DNA of 64,000 nucleotides from contig NZ_CP084098.1 in assembly GCF_036345015.1 (NCBI RefSeq), positions 682,001 to 746,000 of the forward strand, in the 5' to 3' direction. How positions within the stretch are numbered: the first letter of the stretch is position 1; every line of letters begins with the position of its first letter. The notes beneath the pieces are model-generated. The model was not told the origin of the DNA, ran no database searches, and worked only from the letters and a program-made list of their open reading frames with translations. This document shows positions 36,543 to 43,201 of the stretch, piece by piece. A program made the position numbers and the translations under genes. This DNA comes from Cyanobacterium sp. Dongsha4. Lineage in GTDB: Bacteria; Cyanobacteriota; Cyanobacteriia; Cyanobacteriales; Cyanobacteriaceae.

Positions 36543-37502
36543 TTATTGATTAAGGGCTTCCAATACTTTTTCATGAATGTTGCCATTGCTAACCACTACA
36601 CCTCTATTTTCCATCATCTTAGTGGCACTGAAAAAGTCTAAAGGTTTGCCGTACATATCTGTAACTTTACCTCCAGCCTCTTCAACAACGATCGCACCTG
36701 CGGCGTGATCCCAGATATTTTCTCTGTAATCAGGATATTTTGGAGAAGGTAAGCGTAGATAAAGAGCGGCTTCTCCACTGGCAACAATACCATACTTAGC
36801 TTGAGAATCAACTCTGACGGATTGACTCGTAATTCCTACTGCTTGTGCGATCGCATTTTGTCTTTCTTGGTCTCCATGACTGGCTTCAACACTTTCTACA
36901 AAACGAAAACGTTGTACATCATCATTACTAACAACTTGTAATTTAGTCATTTCTCCGCCATTTAAGGGCATTCGATAACTTCCTTCTCCTCTTGCCGCTA
37001 CAAAGATACAACCTTGCTCCTGAGTTTGATTAATGTTCAAAGCGGGACATCCTAAAATCCCTAATTTAACCTCTCCATCTTCAATTAAAGCAAGTGCGAT
37101 CGCATATTGATCTTGTCTTAAAAAACCTTTTGTACCATCAATGGGGTCTAAAGTCCAAAAACGACGACCAACTTTGCCATTACCGTAGTCAATCCAGTCT
37201 AAAACCTGATTTTCCGAAGCATCATCAATAATTTGCTTTACATATTCTGTTATTTTCGTCAGCGTGTTTTTCTGTTCAGATTGTCTTAACTCTGTCGCAT
37301 CTTCTTCCCCGACAATGGGAGTATCAGGAAAAATATCTTTTAAGGCTTTACAAATAATTGCCTGAGAACCAAAGTCAGCCACAGTAACAGGACTTTTGTC
37401 TTGTTTTTCTAAAGCAGGGGGAATATCTTGTCTAACTTTTTGACATAGTTCAGAGGCTTGTAAAACAGCCGAAATAGCGATTTCTTTTTCTTTTTGATAC
37501 AT
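36543..37502 (-). CDS. 3'(2'),5'-bisphosphate nucleotidase / inositol-monophosphatase family
   Basis: A lithium-sensitive Mg-dependent phosphatase of the HAL2/CysQ group that removes the 3' phosphate from PAP (the by-product of sulfate assimilation) and may also act on inositol phosphates. I chose the ATG at 37502 (319 residues); an upstream GTG at 37529 would add nine residues. The metal-binding blocks are VGEEDATEL, WTLDPIDGTKGFLRQDQYA and WDHAAGAIVVEEAGGKVTD. The long insertion between the first two blocks and the GTKGF sequence match HAL2-like enzymes rather than plain inositol monophosphatases. It is transcribed away from the rimP operon. Confidence 0.9.
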   Translation of the reverse strand: MYQKEKEIAISAVLQASELCQKVRQDIPPALEKQDKSPVTVADFGSQAIICKALKDIFPDTPIVGEEDATELRQSEQKNTLTKITEYVKQIIDDASENQVLDWIDYGNGKVGRRFWTLDPIDGTKGFLRQDQYAIALALIEDGEVKLGILGCPALNINQTQEQGCIFVAARGEGSYRMPLNGGEMTKLQVVSNDDVQRFRFVESVEASHGDQERQNAIAQAVGITSQSVRVDSQAKYGIVASGEAALYLRLPSPKYPDYRENIWDHAAGAIVVEEAGGKVTDMYGKPLDFFSATKMMENRGVVVSNGNIHEKVLEALNQ

Positions 37503-37616
37503 AAAATTACAAAACTTTTCTTTGAACACTAATCATTATCAATGATTCCCTACACTTTGACTATTTTTTCTCGGTGCTTAGTCAAACAAGCTAAAGAGGG
37601 AAAAAAGTTTTTTTCA

Positions 37617-37625
37617 TGTTATAAT
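37617..37625 (+). promoter_or_regulatory. Extended -10 promoter (TGTTATAAT) ahead of the rimP leader
   Basis: A perfect TATAAT at 37620-37625 preceded by TG at the extended -10 position (37617-37618). No good -35 is present. The expected transcription start is near 37632. Confidence 0.65.
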
Positions 37626-37631
37626 GCTCTT

Positions 37632-37917
37632 TAGGAAAAAGCTCTACTATAAAAAATGCTTAGTAAACTTAGGGAATGTAAGCGTTTACTTTGACTGGAG
37701 AAATCAGAATCAAAACACTTTATCTAATAGAAATTAATATCTTAAGTCTGTTTCTCTGAATTTCTTTCTGGGGTTCAAGTGGGTACTCTAAGATTATCTG
37801 CTCTTTTGATTTGTTATCAGAAGTTGATAGTGCCTCTTTCTATTTACTCTGAAAATAGTCAAAGTTTTTGAGAAGAGTAAAAAACCATGAGCGAAGTGGG
37901 ACTATCCCGCTTTTTTT
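37632..37917 (+). ncRNA. Candidate leader RNA or small RNA upstream of rimP
   Basis: About 285 nt lie between the extended -10 promoter and an intrinsic terminator, with no open frame. Structures visible are AGTAAAC (37662-37668) pairing with GTTTACT (37684-37690), TATCA/TGATA at 37815-37829, and the terminator at 37894-37917. ATAGTCAAA at 37855-37863 can pair with TTTGACTAT at 37925-37933, bracketing the terminator. It could be an attenuator for the rimP-nusA-ylxR-infB operon or a separate small RNA. I tested 6S, RNase P, SRP and tmRNA by eye and it fits none. The role is inference. Confidence 0.5.
37894..37917 (+). terminator. Intrinsic terminator 50 bases before rimP
   Basis: AAGTGGGA, loop CTA, TCCCGCTT (one G-U pair), then seven T at 37911-37917. 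No protein-coding gene ends here on this strand. Confidence 0.85.
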
Positions 37918-37967
37918 ATTGTCTTTTGACTATGTAACTGAAAAATTTGTCTGAGAAAAATCATTCT

Positions 37968-38429
37968 ATGACTCATCCTCTAATACCTTCTATTTTGGAA
38001 CTAGCTGAACCTATTGCCCAAAAATTAAACCTTGAAATTGCAAATATAGTTTTTCAAACGAACAAAAATCCACCTGTGTTGAGAATAGATATAAAAAGTG
38101 TTGGCGGAGACACCAGTTTAGATGATTGTGAAAAAATGAGTCGTCAACTAGAGGAAATTCTTGATGTGGAAAACACTCTTCCCTCTGCCTATGTTTTGGA
38201 AATTTCTAGTCCTGGAATTGGTAATAACTTAGAGAGCGATCGAGAATTTGTCAGCTTTAAAGGTTTTCCCGTCATTGTCGAAACTAATACGATATTCAAG
38301 AAAAAAAACCGATGGGAAGGCACATTACAAGGTAGAGATGATCAATTTGTCTATATAAATAGTAAAGGTAAAATTACAAAAATTCCCAGAGACATTATCC
38401 AATCAGTGCAATTACATAATCCCAGTTAA
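37968..38429 (+). CDS. rimP: Ribosome maturation factor RimP
   Basis: This cytoplasmic factor binds the 30S precursor and aids 16S processing and S12 incorporation. I chose the ATG at 37968, giving 153 residues that begin MTHPLIPSILELAEPIAQKL, the usual cyanobacterial opening; an upstream in-frame TTG at 37947 would add seven. The N-terminal alpha/beta domain has PPVLRIDIK and the DDCEKMSRQLEEILD helix, then YVLEISSPGI, and a C-terminal SH3-like barrel ends at about residue 150. It is the first gene of the conserved rimP-nusA-ylxR-infB operon; nusA starts 56 bases later. Confidence 0.95.
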   Translation: MTHPLIPSILELAEPIAQKLNLEIANIVFQTNKNPPVLRIDIKSVGGDTSLDDCEKMSRQLEEILDVENTLPSAYVLEISSPGIGNNLESDREFVSFKGFPVIVETNTIFKKKNRWEGTLQGRDDQFVYINSKGKITKIPRDIIQSVQLHNPS

Positions 38430-38485: not shown

Positions 38486-39640
38486 ATGAGCATCGTTAAA
38501 TTATCAGGTTTACAAGCCTTAATTAGTGAAATTAGTCAAACCCACAATTTACCCAGAACTTCCGTAGAAGAAGCCCTTAGAGAAGCATTATTTAAAGGCT
38601 ATGAGCGTTTTCGTCGGTCTAAATTAGGAGAAAAAGCACACAATATGTTACCTCCTGAATATTTTGATAATTTCCGAGTAGAATTGGATTTAGAAGAGGA
38701 AGGCTTTAGAGTTTTAGCCCTAAAAATGGTGACAGATTCTGTGGAAGAGCCTGATCATCAAATTGCTTTAGCTGAAGTTCAAGAGTTTAATGAAGAAGTA
38801 CAATTAGGTAATGAAGTTTTAGTTGATGTTACGCCTGAACAGAAGGATTTTGGTCGCATGGCGGCGATGCAAACAAAGCAAGTCTTGCAACAAAAACTAA
38901 AAGAGCAACAAAGGGCTATTATTCAAGCAGAATTTACGGAGTTGGAAGGAACAGTTCTTTCTGCTAAGGTATTACGCTTCGAGGGACAGTCTGTAATTAT
39001 GACGGTGCAAAGTGCTTATGGAAGACCAGAAGTTGAAGCTGAATTACCAAGAGGAGAGCAACTAAGCAGTGATAACTATCGTGCCAATGCCACTTTCAAG
39101 GTTTATTTAAAACGGGTAAAAGAGGGGGTTCATCGAGGTGCCCAATTAATAGTATCCCGTGCTGATGCTGGTTTAGTCGTTTATTTATTTGCCAATGAAG
39201 TGCCAGAAATTGAGGAAGGAATTATTCGCATTGTGGCTATTTCAAGAGAAGCGAATCCCAGTAAACCAGATATTACAGCAAGAACAAAAATAGCTGTAGA
39301 TACCCTAGAAAGGGATGTTGATCCTGTCGGGGCTTGTATCGGTGCAAGAGGTTCTCGTATTCAGGCAGTAGTGAATGAACTTAAGGGAGAAAAAATAGAT
39401 GTTATTCGTTGGTCCCCAGATCCTGCTACTTACATAGCAAATGCTTTGAGTCCAGCTAAAATAGACATCGTAGAACTGATTGACCCTGATGAAAAACAGT
39501 CTTTAGTGGTAGTTCCCGATAATCACTTTAGTCTTGCTATTGGTAAGGATGGGCAAAATGTTCGTTTAGCGGCACGTCTCACAGGATGGAAAATTGACAT
39601 CAAAAAGAAATCTGACTATTTGAATGAGGAAGCTGAATAA
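38486..39640 (+). CDS. nusA: Transcription termination/antitermination factor NusA
   Basis: RNA-polymerase-associated factor controlling pausing, intrinsic termination and rRNA antitermination. The 384-residue length matches cyanobacterial NusA without the E. coli C-terminal acidic repeats. Order: N-terminal polymerase-binding domain (1-130), S1 domain (about 135-205, GTVLSAKVLRFEG), KH1 (about 230-300, with VGACIGARGSRIQAVVNELK) and KH2 (about 300-375, LAIGKDGQNVRLAARLTGWK). It overlaps ylxR by 17 bases. Given NusA's effect on intrinsic terminators, it could act on the terminator in its own operon leader; that is inference. Confidence 0.97.
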   Translation: MSIVKLSGLQALISEISQTHNLPRTSVEEALREALFKGYERFRRSKLGEKAHNMLPPEYFDNFRVELDLEEEGFRVLALKMVTDSVEEPDHQIALAEVQEFNEEVQLGNEVLVDVTPEQKDFGRMAAMQTKQVLQQKLKEQQRAIIQAEFTELEGTVLSAKVLRFEGQSVIMTVQSAYGRPEVEAELPRGEQLSSDNYRANATFKVYLKRVKEGVHRGAQLIVSRADAGLVVYLFANEVPEIEEGIIRIVAISREANPSKPDITARTKIAVDTLERDVDPVGACIGARGSRIQAVVNELKGEKIDVIRWSPDPATYIANALSPAKIDIVELIDPDEKQSLVVVPDNHFSLAIGKDGQNVRLAARLTGWKIDIKKKSDYLNEEAE

Positions 39641-39902
39641 AATTAAAAATTACCGCCGTTGTATTAGTTGTCAGAAAATCGATCATAAAAATAATTTTTT
39701 TAGGGTGGTGAAAAATAATGCCCAACAAATTATTACTGTTGATCAAGGAATGGGAAGATCAGCTTACATTTGCAAAAATGTCGATTGTGTTGCGATCGCA
39801 GAAAAAAAACGCCTAGCAAAAGCCCTTAAAACGCCCATTTCCTCAGACATCTATCAACAATTGTGGCAAAAACTCAAAGAAATGAAAAACACTGTAAAAT
39901 AA
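39624..39902 (+). CDS. ylxR: YlxR (DUF448) RNA-binding protein
   Basis: A 92-residue small basic protein of the YlxR family, which sits between nusA and infB in many bacteria. The family core is readable as RRCISCQKIDHKNNFFRVVK and GMGRSAYICKNVDCVAIAEK, with the Cys pairs and GRSAY segment conserved. It starts inside the 3' end of nusA (17-base overlap in a different frame), consistent with translational coupling. Relatives have been proposed as nucleoid-associated or RNase P-modulating proteins. Confidence 0.93.
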   Translation: MRKLNKIKNYRRCISCQKIDHKNNFFRVVKNNAQQIITVDQGMGRSAYICKNVDCVAIAEKKRLAKALKTPISSDIYQQLWQKLKEMKNTVK

Positions 39903-39973: not shown

Positions 39974-40114
39974 ATTGTAGATGTTCAACAACAGACCATT
40001 TTTTATGAATATAAATAATTTCATCTGATTAAACACTGTTATATCAAACATCTTAAAACTTTCTTAAAGTCACTCAAAAAACGCAAAATATAGTAAACTT
40101 AAGGCAATTTGTGG

Positions 40115-43100
40115 ATGAAAAACGGAAAAGTAAGAATATACGATTTATCAAAAGAGCTTGCATTAGACAACAAGGACGTATTAGAAATATGTTCTAAGTT
40201 ATCCATTGAGGTAAAAAATCATAGTAGTACCATCACTGAATCCCAAGCACAAGATATTAAAGAAGCAGTAAAAAAAGCCTCCATGACATCGGCACAAAAT
40301 CCAGCAAACAAAAACACCCCTGACAAATTGAAAACCCCCTCCACCAGCATTAAAAAGCCCAATAAAAAGCAGGAAATATTGGCTGTGTACAAAAATGATA
40401 GACAGTCAGAACAGGAAAAAAATAACGCTAACTCCCCTGTATTGTTAAGTCCTCCTCGCCCTCCTCAGCCTTCAAAGGACTATAAAAAAACTCCTAATCA
40501 TTCGGAAATGGTACAGGAAAATGATAATAACTCCCCAAATAATGTTCAAAGTATGGATAAAAGTCTTAAGCAACCTCCAGCACGTCCCTCTTTAGTCGAA
40601 AAACCAGAGTTAAAAAGTCCTTCTGCCCCCGAATTGAAAAAGCCAACTACTATCAGTAAAACTAATAATAAAGAAGGTGATGATAAAAAAGTAGTTAGCC
40701 GTGGTGAAGTATCTGTGTCCACTTCAGAAGAAGAAAAAAGGGCAAAAGGCAAAAATAATAACAAAGCTAAAAACAACTCTCGCCGCACTAAAAATAATCA
40801 AAATTTACCCCGTCGTAACGATAAAGAAAGTATCAGCAGTGGAAAATTTATAGGAGAAGAAAAAGATTCTCTTCCGAAACCTGCTAAACCCATAGTTATT
40901 AAGGATGCAAAAAATTCAGCCGATTCAGATAAGCTCAAATTATCACCAAAACCAAAACTACAAAAACCCCCTCAACGTCCTCCTGCGATCATTGACACTG
41001 ATTTAGATGATGATGATTTAGAAACCAAAGCAAAAGGTAGTGATGAAGATGATTTGGATTCAGAACCAATGTTGCTGGAAAAACCAAAAATCAGAAAGCC
41101 AAAACAGAAAAAATCAACCACGGAAAACTCTTCTTGGGATGATGAAGACGATGATTCTGATAAATCAGGTAAAAAAGATGCGAAGAAAGTCAAGAAGCGT
41201 CGCTCCTTAGTCATTGATGATGATGATGACTTAGAAGATTATTTTGATGATGATCAAGAAGATTCTACGGTTATCGATTTAGCTTTAGCTCGTCCTCCTA
41301 AACAGAAAAAAGAAGCCACAAAAGCTACAGAAAAAACTCGTGCACCTAAAAAACAACCTGTTAGAAAGGATAAATCGGAAACTAAGTCCGAAAGAAAAGG
41401 AAAACAGGAGAAACAAGAAAAACCAGAATTTATCGTCCTTAAAAGTGCTCCTACGGTTCGGGAATTAGCAGACTTATTAGTTACTCCCGATACTGAAGTC
41501 ATTAAACTTCTTTTCTTCAAAGGAATTGCCGTAAATATCACTGAAACTGTCGATTTAGAGATTGCGGAAATGGTGGCCAAAGAGTTGGGAGTGGAAGTAA
41601 TTACGGAAGAGGAAAAAGCTAGTGCGGCTAAAACAGATATGTTAACAGAGGGAGATTTAGACAAACTGCAAAAACGTCCTCCTGTTGTAACAATTATGGG
41701 TCACGTAGATCATGGTAAAACAACCCTTCTTGATTCCATAAGAAACACAAAGGTAGTTCAGGGAGAAGCAGGGGGCATTACTCAACATATTGGTGCTTAT
41801 CATGTAGATGTAGAACATGAGGGAGAAACTCAACAAATTGTGTTCTTAGATACTCCGGGTCACGAAGCCTTTACTGCAATGAGAGCAAGAGGTACAAAAG
41901 TCACTGATATTGCCGTGTTGGTGGTGGCGGCAGATGACGGAGTACGTCCTCAAACAAAAGAAGCTATTAGTCATGCTCGGGCGGCAAAAGTCCCCATTGT
42001 TGTGGCTATTAACAAAATTGATAAGAACGAAGCAAATCCCGATCGCGTCAAACAGGAATTAGCTGAATTAGAATTAGTTCCAGAGGATTGGGGAGGTGAT
42101 ACCGTCATGGTCCCTGTAAGTGCTTTAACTGGTGATAACTTAGATGCTCTTTTAGAGATGATAGTCTTAGTCTCTGAAGTGGAAGAATTATTAGCTAATC
42201 CAGATCGCAACGCTAAGGGAACTGTAATTGAAGCCCATTTAGATCGTGCAAGAGGACCTGTGGCAACATTGTTAGTACAAAATGGTACATTGAGAGTTGG
42301 TGATGTCATTGTTGCTGGTTCTGTAATGGGTAAAATTCGGGCGATGATCGATGATCGAGGTACAAAAGTAGAAGTTGCGAGTCCTTCTTTTGCCGTTGAA
42401 ATTCTGGGTTTAAGTGAACTTCCAGAAGCAGGAGATGAGTTTGAAGTTTATTCCAATGAAAAAGACGCAAGAGCGATCGCAGAAAGCAGAGCGTCCGCAA
42501 AACGTGATAATCGCTTACAACAGGCAATGTCATCTCGCCGGGTGAGTTTAAGTAGCTTATCAGCACAAGCACAACAAGGAGAACTAAAAGAACTTAATTT
42601 GATTCTTAAAGCCGATGTACAGGGTTCTGTTGAAGCTATTTTAGGTTCATTAAAACAACTACCTCAAAATGAAGTACAAATCCGAGTCTTATTATCAGGT
42701 GCAGGAGAAGTAACAGAAACAGATGTAGATTTAGCCGCAGCTTCTGGAGCGGTAGTTATCGGATTTAATACAACTCTTGCACCCGGTGCACGCCAAGCCG
42801 CCGAACAAGAAGGGGTAGATATTCGAGAATATAACGTCATCTATAAATTATTAGATGAAATAGAAGGTGCAATGGAAGGCTTATTAGATCCAGAGGAAGT
42901 GGAAGAAAGTCTAGGAAGAGCTGAAGTGAGAGCCGTTTTCTCCGTTGGAAAAGGAGCTGTGGCAGGATGTTATGTCTTGTCAGGCAAAGTTGTCCGTAAT
43001 CGCTTTATTCGAGTATTACGCAACGGAACAGAAATTTATAATGGTAATTTAGATTCTTTACGCCGTGTCAAAGACGATGTTAAAGAAGTTGCCTCTGGTT

Positions 43101-43201
43101 TTGAATGCGGTATTGCTGTTAATAAATTTAGCCAGTGGCAAGAAGGAGATATTATCGAGGCTTATGAAATGGTCTTTAAACGTCGTACTCTTTCCGCTTA
43201 A
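40115..43201 (+). CDS. infB: Translation initiation factor IF-2
   Basis: GTPase that places initiator tRNA on the 30S subunit and promotes subunit joining. I chose the ATG at 40115 (1028 residues, [15 protein letters not shown] as in relatives); a TTG at 40109 is the alternative. An IF2-N domain opens the protein; residues about 60-440 are a long, lysine/proline/acidic disordered region; a second IF2-N-like segment ([13 protein letters not shown]) lies near 450. The G domain begins near 520 with GHVDHGKT at 529-536, DTPGHEAF and NKID. Domains II, III and IV follow to the C-terminus. Last gene of the rimP operon. Confidence 0.97.

Follow-up and report, generated by a model that had tools for sequence, protein, structure and literature searches.

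The intrinsic terminator that lies shortly upstream of rimP in the 64-kb stretch of DNA analyzed here (hereafter the window) is a real, conserved element of a known kind, located in a phylum that is beyond the reach of the curated Rfam model for such leaders. This leader terminator is conserved nearly letter for letter across most cyanobacteria. We consider it likely that the region works as a transcription attenuator ahead of rimP and that NusA, encoded by the same operon, is the factor stimulating the terminator.

The rimP leader and its terminator

The elements discussed below are the following (positions are those of the window):

37617..37625, + strand: extended -10 element TGTTATAAT (TG-T-TATAAT), read from the sequence, with transcription expected to start near 37632
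37632..37917, + strand: predicted leader RNA ending with the T-run, deduced from promoter and terminator
37843..37881, + strand: hairpin shortly before the terminator, with its arms at 37843-37850 and 37874-37881 (8 Watson-Crick pairs), contained in the predicted fold
37893..37917, + strand: intrinsic terminator with a stem around GTGGG/CCCGC and T7, from terminator scan and folding, conserved ahead of rimP in cyanobacteria
37968..38429, + strand: rimP, from ORF and homology, with its ATG at 37968, a start common to relatives
38486..39640, + strand: nusA, from ORF and homology
39624..39902, + strand: ylxR, from ORF, named by position and by its reading in a preliminary description of this DNA
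40109..43201, + strand: infB, from ORF, an IF-2-type GTPase by reading of the sequence

The gene order rimP-nusA-ylxR-infB proposed in the preliminary description agrees with the ORFs and with homology. The nearest gene upstream of the leader in the ORF list (36543-37529) is divergent on the - strand, so that no gene ends at the terminator, as had been claimed, and the terminator has no upstream gene to serve. For comparison within the genus we used a single congener genome (G001) that aligns along the entire region. The extended -10 was found as previously described and is intact in this congener, with adjoining bases changed, and a consensus scan detected no -35 element for this promoter. 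The roughly 285 non-coding bases that had been noted between the extended -10 and the terminator were likewise borne out, as the + strand between the extended -10 and the rimP ORF has no reading frame of 60 amino acids or more. A candidate leader peptide (12-codon frame, ATG 37657) was rejected, having no obvious ribosome-binding site and, judged by eye, an amino-acid change in the congener.

The terminator hairpin itself (37893-37913; GAAGTGGGACTATCCCGCTTT, then TTTATTG) consists of 9 pairs around a loop of 3 and is followed by T7 at 37911-37917, with 50 bases from the T-run to the rimP ATG. The presence of a strong terminator, its seven T and its distance to rimP had thus been described correctly, and only the stem had been given as 8 pairs. 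It is the one terminator-like site found in 37480-38000, where shuffled sequences would lead to expect 0.1, and its folding z-score is -3.2. In the congener, 37892-37921 differs by a single change that falls within the terminator loop, and the middle of the leader aligns with 16 substitutions in 215 bases.

Two further structures that had been proposed did not hold up as functional elements. The 7-bp stem said to open the RNA (AGTAAAC/GTTTACT, 37662-37668/37684-37690) exists, but the congener breaks it, with 6 of 7 pairs left, and the segment folds with a z-score of -0.56, no better than shuffles. The 9-bp repeat said to bracket the terminator, ATAGTCAAA/TTTGACTAT (37855-37863/37925-37933), is real but at chance level, with a repeat of equal length in 36 of 100 shuffles; its second arm is situated past the termination point, where polymerase arrives only by reading through, and the repeat therefore cannot act on termination. 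Five copies of TTTGACTAT are present on the window's + strand, and the one near 37556 is upstream of the promoter. The hairpin at 37843-37881 had gone unmentioned. Its arms read TTTACTCT/AGAGTAAA in the window and TTTACCCT/AGGGTAAA in the congener, where one T-A pair has become C-G by changes on both sides; as a single compensatory event between two genomes, this pairing is suggestive only.

The 46 bases from the terminator to the rimP ATG (37922-37967) show no substitution between window and congener, which possibly reflects a constraint from ribosome binding or read-through. Their identity would also suit a terminator that merely insulates the operon from stray upstream transcription, with the real promoter between terminator and rimP. 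We regard this as highly improbable: the absence of any promoter-like site on the + strand between terminator and rimP in the window counts against it, and in many other genomes the T-run is followed by only 10-15 bases before the ATG, too short for a promoter.

Conservation of the terminator across cyanobacteria

We gathered 105 distinct cyanobacterial rimP upstream regions by RimP or NusA searches and screened them with the expression GTGGG-N(4-9)-CCC(A/G)C-T(5-8), in which GTGGG is required. The GTGGG...CCC(A/G)C stem with its run of 5-8 T precedes rimP in 103 of the 105, a sample that was picked by NusA/RimP similarity to the window and therefore over-represents the window's side of the phylum. 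One of the two remaining regions (L050) reads GTGGG..CCCTCC plus a T-run, and the other (L094) has a weaker hairpin with T7. Most regions also carry GAA on the 5' side of the motif and RTTG on its 3' side, while variation is seen in the terminator loop, from 4 to 9 bases, and in the spacing to the ATG, from 10 to 242. In contrast to the conserved stem, RimP proteins from outside the genus share only about 48-70% identity, and whole-leader DNA searches beyond the genus recover only the terminator portion at rimP.

The preliminary description had looked to relatives for conservation of this terminator. It is near-intact in the congener, and a pattern search of 60 relatives found it less than 400 bp upstream of rimP, on the same strand, in 56 of the 58 rimP-bearing genomes. 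The two exceptions are G044, which has a variant hairpin with T7, and G015, in which terminator and rimP are separated by a TnpB-like ORF (locus L212, G015:C113:8000-11500; the call relies on just the first part of the ORF's translation). Apart from the 56 rimP sites, the pattern matched 47 times in the 60 genomes, including the rimP leader of G015 itself. A wider regulon of the motif was considered and dropped: of the non-rimP sites, the 14 inspected fell within ORFs or closely followed genes, such as a groEL-like one, and none was shown to be a leader. Hairpins of the form AGTGGG..CCC(A/G)CT also precede rimP at L189, L191, and L193, loci from further lineages of the phylum that we infer to be non-photosynthetic sisters. 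Overall, the stem letters and the T-run ahead of rimP are conserved in most of the phylum.

A family of genomes of 1.0-3.9 Mb (f41; L178-L186, L188, and L214-L240), presumably marine picocyanobacteria, has no such terminator upstream of rimP, and it was not found in L171 and L174, which belong to other genomes of the class; the operon can therefore do without it. A motif resembling TGCCYGRCGGGYACCTCC-loop-GGAGGCAGGT...CCGGTCGGGC...GTCCGA recurs in many rimP leaders of the small-genome family, and 14 hand-picked ones, when aligned, fold into two hairpins in which some pairs have changed and which no T-run follows. The rimP start in this family is apparently TTG or GTG at 36 of 37 loci, and Rfam had no match at E<=0.5 for 4 of the leader loci. 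These leaders possibly represent an undescribed translation-level control of the rimP operon.

Separately, leaders of about 100 nt (L024, L026, L036, L070-L111, and related ones, mostly Nostocales-like) display a possible antiterminator ACUUCUUG/CAGGAAGU as well as a hairpin CGAAC..GTTCG after the likely start, with changes on both sides.

A likely attenuator of the nusA operon

We infer that transcription starts and stops at the promoter-like and terminator sequences and that NusA is the regulator. RNA polymerase would start near 37632 and make a leader of about 285 nt; part of the polymerases would stop at the intrinsic terminator, and the rest would continue into rimP-nusA-ylxR-infB. NusA made from this operon would most likely stimulate the leader terminator, so that read-through decreases when NusA is plentiful and increases when it is scarce.

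The preliminary description had left open whether the terminator ends a stand-alone RNA or attenuates the nusA operon. Attenuation is favored because the terminator is conserved ahead of rimP in most photosynthetic members examined and the rest of the leader is free to change, and there is published precedent for it. A small RNA of about 285 nt that acts elsewhere could be the product of such a promoter, leader, and strong terminator, with rimP transcribed mainly by read-through or from another promoter, and the enterobacterial rimP leader has been listed among attenuator-derived sRNAs associated with ProQ (PMC5391140). We nevertheless consider a small RNA very unlikely, given that outside the genus the terminator alone is conserved and the remaining RNA is not, and that leader length is very different between clades.

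Attenuation might also be controlled by something other than NusA, be it RimP (also mentioned by Naville and Gautheret, PMC2965389), another protein, a small RNA, or an upstream arm that refolds over the 5' arm of the terminator. Such refolding is predicted for 26 mostly Nostocales-like leaders, in which ACUUCUUGG would pair with CAGGAAGU before the 3' arm is transcribed and cover part of the terminator's 5' arm; as the letters involved hardly vary, covariation is weak. Across 103 leaders, arm pairing scored 0.71 compared to 0.61 in shuffles, a difference that is inflated by related sequences. Nothing like this pairing is seen in the window's own leader, where our search for a local antiterminator found none (pairing of the GAAGT arm was 0.37 versus 0.39 in shuffles). 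On balance, control by another factor appears unlikely.

Comparison with known rimP leaders

Bacteria probably limit the amount of NusA by a leader switch of the kind described here. In Bacillus subtilis, NusA-stimulated termination in the leader has been reported to limit NusA synthesis (Mondal et al. 2016, as cited in a review, PMC12288461); both systems place an intrinsic terminator in the leader, with the dependence on NusA reported in B. subtilis and presumed in the window. A cyanobacterial study (PMC13289151) states that these organisms have no Rho and reports in vitro stimulation of two intrinsic terminators by NusA with a cyanobacterial polymerase; in its strain, only 22% of transcription units end intrinsically. 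Intrinsic termination and NusA may carry more weight in a phylum reported to be without Rho, and our results bring into this phylum a rimP-leader attenuator whose Rfam curation is confined to Gammaproteobacteria. With stem letters that are near-invariant, it can readily be tested whether the sequence of a terminator is read by NusA or polymerase, and the motif can be used in cyanobacterial genome annotation to mark the leader of the rimP operon. A more speculative and rather doubtful scenario is that the letters are near-invariant because NusA (or polymerase) reads them and not only the fold, that some clades have added antiterminator hairpins, and that the small-genome cyanobacteria have swapped the terminator for a structured leader beside a non-ATG rimP start, thereby moving from transcriptional to translational control.

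Naville and Gautheret (2010) ranked rimP first among genes with predicted attenuators and found its attenuator to be the most ubiquitous one, with NusA as the best candidate regulator (PMC2965389); cyanobacteria go unmentioned in their main text. The rimP-leader that they described has a G-rich 5' arm, a C-rich 3' arm, and a T-run, as in the window, and its terminator is located 4-130 bases before rimP of a rimP-nusA-infB operon, a range into which the distance in the window falls. It likewise combines conserved stem letters with no visible antiterminator, except in some Gammaproteobacteria. Its stem is conserved as GGGc..gCCC, compared to AGTGGG..CCC(A/G)CT in cyanobacteria; the window shares GGG..CCC, but the inner neighboring pair is A-T and not c-g.

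The Rfam model RF01770 describes the gammaproteobacterial rimP leader, which occupies the same position in the same operon as the leader of the window. It did not match the window's leader even at E<=10, and its 6 weak matches in the window's own genome all lie elsewhere than at rimP; Rfam as a whole gave nothing credible in this leader at gathering or relaxed thresholds. The mismatch arises most likely because the model is built of two hairpins in tandem that span 102 positions, unlike the window with its one terminator-like site. The Escherichia coli leader, which matches RF01770 at 102 bits, carries ACTGGGCTTTAGGCCC-T7 at the same place ahead of rimP, and its second RF01770 hairpin, ACTGGGC..GCCC-T7, resembles the terminator of the window. 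We view the element in the window as probably a local, cyanobacterial form of the rimP-leader attenuator that has already been described.
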